The notes under the pieces: generated by a model
The model's input: the letters and a program-made list of their open reading frames with translations, nothing else
Told to the model about the DNA's origin: nothing
The model's database searches: none
Translations under genes and position numbers: made by a program
In this document: one piece after another, positions 8,651 to 12,775 of the stretch
How positions within the stretch are numbered: position 1 is the stretch's first letter
Layout of the letters: every line of letters begins with the position of its first letter
Assembly: GCA_029549985.1 (NCBI GenBank)
Contig: JAKPIB010000045.1
Span: forward strand, 1 to 53,101
Length of the DNA: 53,101 nucleotides
Source of the DNA: Bacillota bacterium
Lineage (GTDB): Bacteria; Bacillota; Clostridia; Caldicoprobacterales; DTU083
Direction: 5' to 3'

Positions 8651-9967
<1,317 letters not shown>

Positions 9968-10069: not shown

Positions 10070-10159
<90 letters not shown>

Positions 10160-10196
10160 ATGTTTTATATCCAATTTAATGTGACAGGCCCATTGT

Positions 10197-10290
10197 GGAG
10201 AAGTACCCAAGTTGGCCGAAGGGGCGCCCCTGCTAAGGGTGTAGGTCGGGGATTTCCGGCGCGAGGGTTCGAATCCCTCCTTCTCCGCCA
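10197..10290 (+). tRNA. tRNA-Ser (anticodon GCT)
   Basis: Acceptor arms GGAGAAG and CTTCTCC pair. The anticodon loop CTGCTAA has GCT at 10232-10234. The extended variable arm typical of serine tRNAs and the T-loop GGTTCGAATCC are present. CCA is encoded (10288-10290). It is 38 bases after the first tRNA-Ser and co-transcribed with it. Confidence 0.97.
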
Positions 10291-10954: not shown

Positions 10955-11332
10955 TTAGTCCTCCTCTTGATAAAACATCGTTAAAAGCTCGATCAGTTTG
11001 TCCAATGATATACCGCTTGTGCGTGCAATGTCAGCCGCCGCTTGCAGGTGTTCTTCGGCCAAGCGCTGCTGTTCTTCCTGGTAAAAGTCTTTATTCAAAG
11101 CGGATACAAAACTGCCGCGGCCCACAGTCGTTTCGATAAATCCATCTCTCTGCAGATCTTCATATGCTTTTTGCACTGTTATGACACTTACATGGAGAGA
11201 TTTTGCCAGCGCCCGCATAGAGGGTATGGGATCGCCGGGCCGCAATTCACCACTCATGATCATGGCTTTTATCTGAGAAGTGATCTGCTCATAAATAGGT
11301 TTACTTGTGTTGCTACTTATTATGATCTCCAC
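10955..11332 (-). CDS. GntR family regulator, YtrA subfamily
   Basis: The 125-residue product has the GntR winged helix (KPIYEQITSQIKAMIMSGEL, then PGDPIPSMRALAKSLHVSVI and TVQKAYEDLQRDGFIE) and only a short helical C-terminal tail, which is the YtrA subfamily. These repress their own operon, which usually encodes an ABC exporter responding to cell-wall antibiotics or other stress. Here the transporter gene downstream is broken, so the regulator may be autoregulatory only or may control something else in trans. A palindromic operator lies just upstream (11357-11377). Confidence 0.9.
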   Translation of the reverse strand: MEIIISSNTSKPIYEQITSQIKAMIMSGELRPGDPIPSMRALAKSLHVSVITVQKAYEDLQRDGFIETTVGRGSFVSALNKDFYQEEQQRLAEEHLQAAADIARTSGISLDKLIELLTMFYQEED

Positions 11333-11377: not shown

Positions 11378-11494
11378 ATTTACGCACACTAACACTGTTT
11401 AACAATAGGGAAATCGAAATTTTTCTGAATTGTAAGCAAAAATTGAATATGTTAAAATCATACTATCAAGTCATATTTTAAGGAGATGCTTGTC

Positions 11495-11521
11495 ATGGTA
11501 TATGCAAGGCCCCCCTGTTAA
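11495..11521 (+). CDS. Putative leader peptide MVYARPPC upstream of the MFS exporter
   Basis: A very strong ribosome binding site (TTAAGGAGATG, 11479 onward) precedes ATG GTA TAT GCA AGG CCC CCC TGT TAA, encoding eight residues. The Arg-Pro-Pro-Cys end is short and proline-rich, the kind of sequence on which ribosomes pause. A hairpin (AAGGC at 11506-11510 with GCCTT at 11522-11526) overlaps the end of this frame. Further down, a CTCCTCC segment can mask the ribosome binding site of the MFS gene. The arrangement is that of translational or transcriptional attenuation of drug-resistance genes. Its role is inference. Confidence 0.6.
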   Translation: MVYARPPC

Positions 11522-11546
11522 GCCTTAATAATCAGTTCACGAGGCC

Positions 11547-11592
11547 CTCCTCCATTTTTGTTCTCATAAAACTGCAAACAAAATGAGAGGAG
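11547..11592 (+). promoter_or_regulatory. Hairpin that can sequester the MFS ribosome binding site
   Basis: CTCCTCCATTTTTG (11547-11560) pairs almost fully with CAAAATGAGAGGAG (11579-11592), which contains the AGAGGAG ribosome binding site eight bases before the MFS start codon. When this helix forms the site is covered; ribosome stalling on the leader peptide could favour another fold. There is no T run, so control of translation rather than termination is more likely. Confidence 0.6.
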
Positions 11593-11599
11593 TCTGAAT

Positions 11600-12775
11600 A
11601 TGAACGATGTTCGTCATAATGTCCCGAAGCTCTATGTCATCCGTTTTTTCAAAAACCTGATCCCTGCTTATGTCATCGAAAGGTTGTTTTGGGAGCAGAG
11701 GGGCATGACGATCCAGATGGTTGTATACACGGAGATCATATATGCGATAACCGTTGTCTTGCTTGAGATCCCAACCGGTATCATCGCTGACAGATGGGGC
11801 CGGAAAAGGATGATAGTGCTAGATTGTTTTCTAGGCTGCCTGGAACTGTTGATACTGGTATTCGCGACTGAATTCTGGCACTTTGCCGCAGCGATATTTA
11901 TAGCGGGGATCGGCCGTTCCGTAGGCAGCGGGTCTGAGAACGCACTGCTTTATGATTCATTGCTGTCAAGCGGCGATGAGCGCTCTTTTGAAAAATGCCT
12001 GGGACGTTTGAATGCCTGGGATTTTACCGCAGCGATCCTGGCGGCATTGAGCGGAAGCCTGATGGCCGGCCTGTTTGGATTTGAGCTGAATTATTGGGTA
12101 TCCGTTGCCGGGATGTTTGTTTCCTTGTGCATAGCATTGATGCTTGCAGAGCCTGAGGTAAAGAGCAAAAGCGACAGCCCCATCGCGGTCGGAGAATATG
12201 TGGCAGCTTCGGTGTCCTTTTTCAAGAGGAACTATGGAGTTTGTCTTATGCTGCTTTCAGCGATGGTTACCGGAGCAGCGCTGAATTTCATTGATGAGTT
12301 CTGGCAGCTTTATATAAACAGGCTGGGAGTGCCTGTCATATATTTCGGCTTGTTTTCATCAGGGCTGAGTTTACTAAGGCTCCCGGGGAACATACTTGCC
12401 TATAAAATCAAGGAAAAGATAAGTTACAGGGCAATGGTGTCGGGAGTAGTCCTGACCATTGCTGCCGGAATGTTCTACCTGTATGCGGTCAGAGGGATCA
12501 CAGGCCTTGCGGTGATTTTTCTCATCTGCCTTGTATCAGGCATTATTGAACCGGCAGCTACCGGTTATCTGCATCACCGTATCGATTCTTCGATGAGGGC
12601 TACCATCGATTCATTCCAGTCACTGGGATTGAGATCGATGATCATCATTATAGGACTGGGCTTCGGCTGGGTATCATCAAGATTTGACATATACGGCGGT
12701 TATGGGTTTATATCCTTGATATGCTGTGCATTCTTAGTGTTTTTCCTGATCTCATCAAAGCATATAGCACAATAG
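11600..12775 (+). CDS. MFS family transporter, probable drug efflux
   Basis: The 391-residue integral membrane protein has about 12 hydrophobic segments and an MFS motif A, GIIADRWGRKRM, between helices 2 and 3 (about residues 59-71). The N-terminus (VPKLYVIRFFKNLIPAYVIE) and length fit the small, poorly characterised MFS exporters found in Clostridia and Bacilli. The leader peptide and sequestering hairpin upstream suggest induction by a ribosome-targeting compound, which would make this an inducible efflux pump. The substrate is not predictable from the sequence. The nearby regulator gene is divergent and may not be involved. Confidence 0.85.
   Translation: MNDVRHNVPKLYVIRFFKNLIPAYVIERLFWEQRGMTIQMVVYTEIIYAITVVLLEIPTGIIADRWGRKRMIVLDCFLGCLELLILVFATEFWHFAAAIFIAGIGRSVGSGSENALLYDSLLSSGDERSFEKCLGRLNAWDFTAAILAALSGSLMAGLFGFELNYWVSVAGMFVSLCIALMLAEPEVKSKSDSPIAVGEYVAASVSFFKRNYGVCLMLLSAMVTGAALNFIDEFWQLYINRLGVPVIYFGLFSSGLSLLRLPGNILAYKIKEKISYRAMVSGVVLTIAAGMFYLYAVRGITGLAVIFLICLVSGIIEPAATGYLHHRIDSSMRATIDSFQSLGLRSMIIIIGLGFGWVSSRFDIYGGYGFISLICCAFLVFFLISSKHIAQ

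Follow-up and report, generated by a model that had tools for sequence, protein, structure and literature searches.

How is the gene for a predicted exporter opened for translation when its ribosome binding site is folded away? This question is raised by a locus in a 53,101-nucleotide stretch of DNA from a Bacillota bacterium (contig JAKPIB010000045.1; the whole stretch that was analysed is called the window here). In it, a leader frame of eight codons, MVYARPPC, precedes a gene for an exporter of the major facilitator superfamily (MFS), and a hairpin masks the Shine-Dalgarno (SD) sequence of that gene (Table 1). A preliminary description of the window had proposed an antibiotic-sensing attenuator in which a ribosome stalled on Arg-Pro-Pro-Cys exposes the binding site of the exporter. 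Comparison with homologous loci showed that the feature is real and widespread, and that its mechanism is likely to be a different one. The exporter is quite probably gated by readthrough of the leader stop codon, and the locus would then be a readthrough-gated translational attenuator.

Using the exporter protein as a query, we obtained 79 loci from named Bacilli and Clostridia genomes, and in 74 of these a short frame ending in R-(P/S/A)-P-(C/S)-stop lies just 5' of the exporter gene. The leader and the SD-masking hairpin are kept in about 100 exporter homologues from these two classes. The preliminary description was therefore right about the leader with its own SD and about the segment that pairs with the exporter's binding site, both of which are conserved. 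The leader consensus is A-R-(P/S/A)-P-(C/S)-stop, and its length is 8 or 9 residues in 79 of the 83 loci that have leader plus hairpin. The stop is TAA in 80/82 loci and TGA in 2/82; by this comparison, the leader stop itself is under selection. Conservation is limited to the C-terminus of the leader, where synonymous codons alternate (AGA/CGA/AGG/CGT, then CCT/CCC/CCG/CCA, and TGT/TGC/AGC/AGT at the end). Since the third positions vary, it is the peptide, and not only the RNA, that is conserved. The last sense codon before the stop is only TGY (Cys) or AGY (Ser), with one exception (L072, described below). The Ser codons TCN never stand there though they are one base change away, which hints at a role for the P-site tRNA or for the nucleotides preceding the stop.

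A DNA pattern for the leader, searched independently of the exporter, matched 53 of 392 Paenibacillales genomes (7 hits with the reversed pattern as a control), 12 of 398 Bacilli genomes and, within the window's phylum, 6 of 398. Across the roughly 1,190 genomes scanned, this exporter stood behind every convincing leader copy whose locus was fetched, and thus the leader appears to be dedicated to this exporter family. Ten other hits of the pattern, before other genes, looked like chance.

Of the 83 loci with leader plus hairpin, 82 carry a second motif, R-(A/G/P)-P-P, past the leader stop and in register with the leader. At every one of the 82 it occupies frame 0, and it is absent from frames 1 and 2, which rules out a frameshift in place of readthrough. 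In the tree set, the motif is RAPP in 62 loci, RPPP in 12 and RGPP in 7. In the window the leader frame continues as TAA GCC TTA ATA ATC AGT TCA CGA GGC CCT CCT (stop-ALIISS-RGPP). The preliminary description had overlooked these RGPP codons, which form the 5' side of the very hairpin that masks the SD. The spacing between stop and RAPP ranges from 4 to 9 codons and is a whole number of codons in 82/82 loci; the distance from leader stop to exporter start is spread over the three frames (25/20/38). On a fast tree of the exporter, we counted at least 13 changes in the spacing, all of them by whole codons. This count is the one statistic on the loci that takes relatedness into account. The stretch between leader stop and RAPP is free of stops in frame 0 in 79 of the 82 loci, against 29 and 47 in the other two frames and 47 in frame 0 behind RAPP (Fisher p = 1e-9 to 8e-17, the loci not being fully independent). 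No in-frame ATG, GTG or TTG occurs between the leader stop and RAPP in any of the 82 loci. Within the R-A-P-P codons the first and second positions are nearly fixed and the third positions vary, and the codon right after the leader stop is variable. This is the signature of coding constraint: to judge from the pattern, translation would run on from the leader through the stop as far as RAPP, beyond which the frame is no longer constrained. A conserved stop with coding constraint directly behind it in the same frame, the mark of a stop-codon readthrough gene, is seen here.

RAPP and RGPP are the most robust RAPP-like arrest sequences known, with RGPP the strongest; the Arg is irreplaceable, Gly enhances the arrest, the second place also admits Pro, and the stall is not relieved by EF-P (PMC12992588). 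Structures of the arrested complexes have been reported (PMC10951233). The residues found here at the second place (A, G, P) and the invariant Arg match this published tolerance. All 82 loci carry the R-(A/G/P/S)-P-P core of RAPP-type arrest in frame, and we infer its translation from the coding constraint. The core, the Arg, the tolerated residues and the regulation of a downstream gene are shared with the arrest peptides ApcA, ApdA and ApdP (PMC7897499, PMC10951233, PMC12992588). Unlike in these peptides, the motif here is hidden behind a conserved stop and the nascent chain would measure only about 17–20 residues. In place of an N-terminal signal or transmembrane segment and a downstream sec or yidC gene, there is a leader of 8–11 residues, with neither signal sequence nor transmembrane segment, 5' of a Bacillota MFS exporter. 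The first motif, R-(P/S/A)-P-(C/S), resembles a weaker form of the RAPP arrest, because Cys and Ser follow Pro among the supporting A-site residues. The published ranking is Pro > Cys > ... Ser (PMC7897499), and the preference for C over S in the leader agrees with it. RAPP leaders were reported to be absent from many Gram-positive bacteria, including Bacillota (PMC12992588). Sites behind a stop codon would escape surveys of annotated proteins.

To follow the masking of the exporter SD, we calculated folds for the 82 loci with the ribosome represented as a simple mask. On average, each SD base is paired with the RAPP-coding bases with a probability of 0.71. The mean probability that the SD is unpaired was 0.24 both for the ribosome-free RNA and with a ribosome placed at the leader stop (p = 0.99), and the Arg-Pro-Pro-Cys stall, as first proposed, thus did not expose the exporter's site in the model. 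With a ribosome at RAP/P and the RNA behind it covered, the value rose to 0.53 (p = 7e-14); with the leader left free to pair, it was 0.36. A cruder definition of the SD gave the same order of opening. By this model, the SD can be opened by a ribosome on RAPP but not by one at the leader stop. Random synonymous codons in place of the RAPP codons mask the SD less well (0.31, against 0.24 for the native ones; p = 2e-9), and therefore the segment serves both the peptide and the RNA. In the window, the pairing of CTCCTCCATTTT with AAAATGAGAGGAG is the main hairpin of the minimum-energy fold, in which CTCCTCCATTTT pairs with the exporter SD. The folding energy of this hairpin is unremarkable compared with shuffled sequence (z = -1.14), and we judge the hairpin to be real because it is conserved, not by its energy alone. 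The leader RNA matched no known RNA family in Rfam.

The hairpin was also seen at two loci that lack the leader. At L021 (1940–2000), a close relative of the window's exporter keeps the SD hairpin, the 5' arm of which overlaps the end of the upstream gene; this suggests that the exporter is coupled there to the upstream gene instead of to a leader. At L009 (1900–2010, minus strand), the homologue match covers only residues 6–140 and the frame is apparently disrupted. The TTCACGAGCACCTCC block and the hairpin are kept at this locus, and the RPPC leader is lost.

A second arrangement, also missed in the preliminary description, is found in Exiguobacterium. Both the hairpin and RAPP are missing there, and the leader TAA is followed directly by the exporter in the same frame, as M(K)RARSPS-TAA-V(G/R)RN... 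or MNPVRPPC-TAA-VGLRRN.... The exporter gene is present in 17 of 19 Exiguobacterium genomes, and there are 21 distinct loci with the leader-TAA-exporter frame, two of them from Bacilli genomes outside named Exiguobacterium. No conserved start codon precedes the first transmembrane helix in these exporters, several of which offer no possible start before codon 17 or 22. The ratio of nonsynonymous to synonymous polymorphism (pN/pS) in the first five codons after the stop is 0.33, which denotes purifying selection; in the shifted frames it is 1.0 and 2.2 over codons 1–15. By these measures, exporter coding begins directly behind the stop in Exiguobacterium, and readthrough is, on the comparative evidence, the common denominator of both arrangements. 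A distant homologue from a metagenome-assembled genome (L072, 1970–2060) reads TTG-YTRPYH-TAG-exporter, all in one frame, and may represent the Exiguobacterium arrangement in independent or decayed form.

We propose the following mechanism. By default, ribosomes would make the leader of 8–9 residues and terminate at TAA, and the exporter SD would stay paired with CCUCC. A compound that slows termination or causes miscoding would let some ribosomes read through TAA, translate 4–9 further codons in frame and stall on R-(A/G/P)-P-P. The CCUCC bases belong to the Pro codons, so that the stalled ribosome would cover the masking strand and free the exporter SD. The first motif, R-x-P-(C/S), may act as a weaker arrest that makes the next stop leaky or drug-sensitive. 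In Exiguobacterium, the circuit would be reduced to leader, stop and exporter in one frame, and the exporter would itself be the product of readthrough. The presumed role of the exporter is to remove the inducing compound. The leader thus likely works like a translational attenuator whose signal is passage of the leader stop, the sensing of readthrough being the new element.

UAA is read by both release factors and is normally the tightest stop, properties that fit a sensor of termination failure in general. Trapping of release factors by compounds such as apidaecin makes ribosomes read through all three stop codons, an effect that is weaker with miscoding drugs (PMC7544508). Azithromycin and amikacin raised readthrough in reporters (PMC10959953). 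A short leader of restricted length would also suit a drug of the exit tunnel, which is indistinguishable on the present comparison from an inducer that acts on termination or decoding. On balance, we lean towards a widespread bacterial switch whose input is termination failure, with UAA readthrough leading to a hidden RAPP arrest or, in Exiguobacterium, to the exporter. It would serve as an inducible defence against a presumed class of termination-blocking or miscoding toxins.

Several points weigh against gating by readthrough. A second in-frame stop lies ahead of RAPP in three of the 82 loci (L047, L061, L067), and L130 has RLPC in place of RAPP. The leader of L045 ends in AKPPC, a KPPC variant, and the leader start codon is lost in L093, an Exiguobacterium-type locus. 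Three close relatives of the window's exporter (L021, L023, L053) have no leader. In the model, a ribosome on RAPP opens the SD only in part (0.36–0.53), and the stop used almost throughout is UAA, the tightest. We know of no MFS exporter for a termination inhibitor.

Readthrough may also be real and yet not drug-induced, if an intrinsically leaky R-x-P-C/S-stop sets a constant exporter level or reports the status of the release factors. All the structural evidence for readthrough applies equally to this explanation, and R-x-P-C is similar to a weak arrest motif, which could be enough to slow termination (PMC7897499). However, a plain weak SD would be a simpler route to a constant level, and the bipartite arrest and masked SD in front of an exporter look built for a conditional signal. 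We regard this explanation as unlikely, but worth bearing in mind.

In classical translational attenuation, a drug-bound ribosome stalled at R-P-P-C/stop would by itself open the exporter SD. A short leader frame with its own SD lies 5' of the exporter, the downstream SD is sequestered as in ErmCL-type attenuators (unpaired 0.24 in the 82 loci), and the C-terminus and stop of the 8–9 residue leader are conserved. Its length resembles that of MsrDL and ErmCL, leaders that sense drugs of the exit tunnel. Yet the SD stays closed in the model when the ribosome sits at the leader stop, the in-frame RAPP and the stop-free spacer behind the stop have no role, and Exiguobacterium, with the exporter in the leader frame, has no second initiation site to unmask. 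We consider this explanation very improbable. What survives of the preliminary proposal is the conserved leader, the masked SD and, as a likely reading, an attenuator that responds to a translation inhibitor; the specific stall on the leader does not.

The frame could be resumed by another kind of recoding, with ribosomes hopping over the stop or terminating and reinitiating on a non-standard codon beside it. Nearly every Exiguobacterium locus has GUY directly behind the stop, and in operons ribosomes commonly reinitiate beside a stop codon. In the leader-plus-hairpin loci, however, the codon after the stop varies and no start codon precedes RAPP, and reinitiation would not need the frame to be kept with that of the leader; such recoding has little probability in our view. 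That the RAPP block is kept only as RNA (an anti-SD, CCUCC) and its frame is coincidental can practically be dismissed, for although the block pairs with the SD and its codon choice favours pairing, it is contradicted by the counts, namely frame 0 in 82/82 loci, at least 13 codon-sized spacing changes, variable third positions and avoidance of stops in frame 0 only.

Readthrough gating has partial parallels among known systems. In prfB (RF2), slow termination at an in-frame stop is the signal, as proposed here; there it leads to a programmed frameshift in a negative feedback on the release factor, whereas here it would lead to in-frame readthrough and an exporter. The attenuators ErmCL, MsrDL and ToiL/topAI (PMC12121999) share with this locus a short leader frame, a masked downstream SD and access to that SD decided by the position of a ribosome. 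In contrast to these, the decisive position here would lie behind the leader stop and be reached only by readthrough, and arrest on RAPP/RGPP would cover the masking strand. The human AMD1 element shares readthrough followed by a programmed stall in the extension that regulates expression (PMC13025110). It is eukaryotic, its stall is at a second stop 384 nucleotides on, and it acts on the same gene; the bacterial stall proposed here would occur a few codons on and activate a downstream exporter. We found no bacterial readthrough-gated attenuator in the open-access literature, and a published case elsewhere remains possible.

If the proposal is correct, bacteria use stop-codon readthrough as a regulatory signal, a distinct trigger for regulation by leader peptides and a new way to sense toxins. 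The leader would serve, as it stands, as a biosensor of compounds directed against termination. RAPP arrest sites would also be present in Bacillota, and their position behind a stop codon would explain why annotated ones were reported as missing there. The exporters of Exiguobacterium would be genuine readthrough genes that are probably mis-annotated, and a new class of natural toxins, exported by a conserved MFS family, would be indicated.

The exporter itself is an MFS protein by Pfam (MFS_1, E = 1.8e-19), and its AlphaFold model is confident and all-helical (predicted local distance difference test score, pLDDT, 87). Foldseek matches include NorA, MdfA, VMAT and SLC19A1, a likeness at the level of the fold only. 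The protein has the fold of MFS drug exporters and falls into no named resistance subfamily, since all matches to Tet and other NCBIfam models are far under the cut-off (for example, Tet(40) with 26 of 800 bits). We found no sequence relatives in the Protein Data Bank, no close relatives on plasmids (best identity 36%), and none in viral contigs, where the bipartite motif at its commonest spacing was also absent. Across 10 loci, the exporter had no obvious conserved neighbour genes.

Table 1. Features of the leader and exporter locus in the window.
Feature	Position	Strand	Details and basis
Candidate promoter of the leader transcript, weak, sigma-70-like	11430..11458	+	TTGTAA-17-TAAAAT, TG before -10; from a consensus scan only, no evidence of function
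Leader SD, AAGGAG	11480..11485	+	Sequence; leaders of homologues are also preceded by an SD
Leader frame, MVYARPPC-TAA	11495..11521	+	ATG at 11495; R-P-P-C 11507-11518; stop TAA 11519-11521
Putative readthrough spacer, ALIISS, 6 codons, leader frame	11522..11539	+	Frame 0 stop-free in 79/82 loci
Putative second arrest motif, R-G-P-P (CGA GGC CCT CCT), leader frame behind the stop	11540..11551	+	RxPP in frame 0 in 82/82 loci
Anti-SD within/at the RGPP codons	11547-11552	+	Pairs with the exporter SD
Hairpin masking the exporter SD	11547..11592	+	5' arm 11547-11558, 3' arm 11577-11592; predicted fold
Exporter SD, AGGAG	11588..11592	+	Sequence
MFS exporter, 391 residues, about 12 transmembrane helices	11600..12775	+	Pfam MFS_1, predicted structure

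Just upstream of the candidate leader promoter lies a gene for a GntR-family regulator (10955–11332, minus strand), which is PmtR-like and scores below the curated cut-off. No obvious counterpart of it was seen beside the exporter in the ten other loci inspected. Further upstream, a T-box leader (RF00230, 8373–8588) precedes a gene for a seryl-tRNA synthetase-like protein (8684–9967) and two tRNA-Ser genes (10070–10290), an ordinary arrangement.
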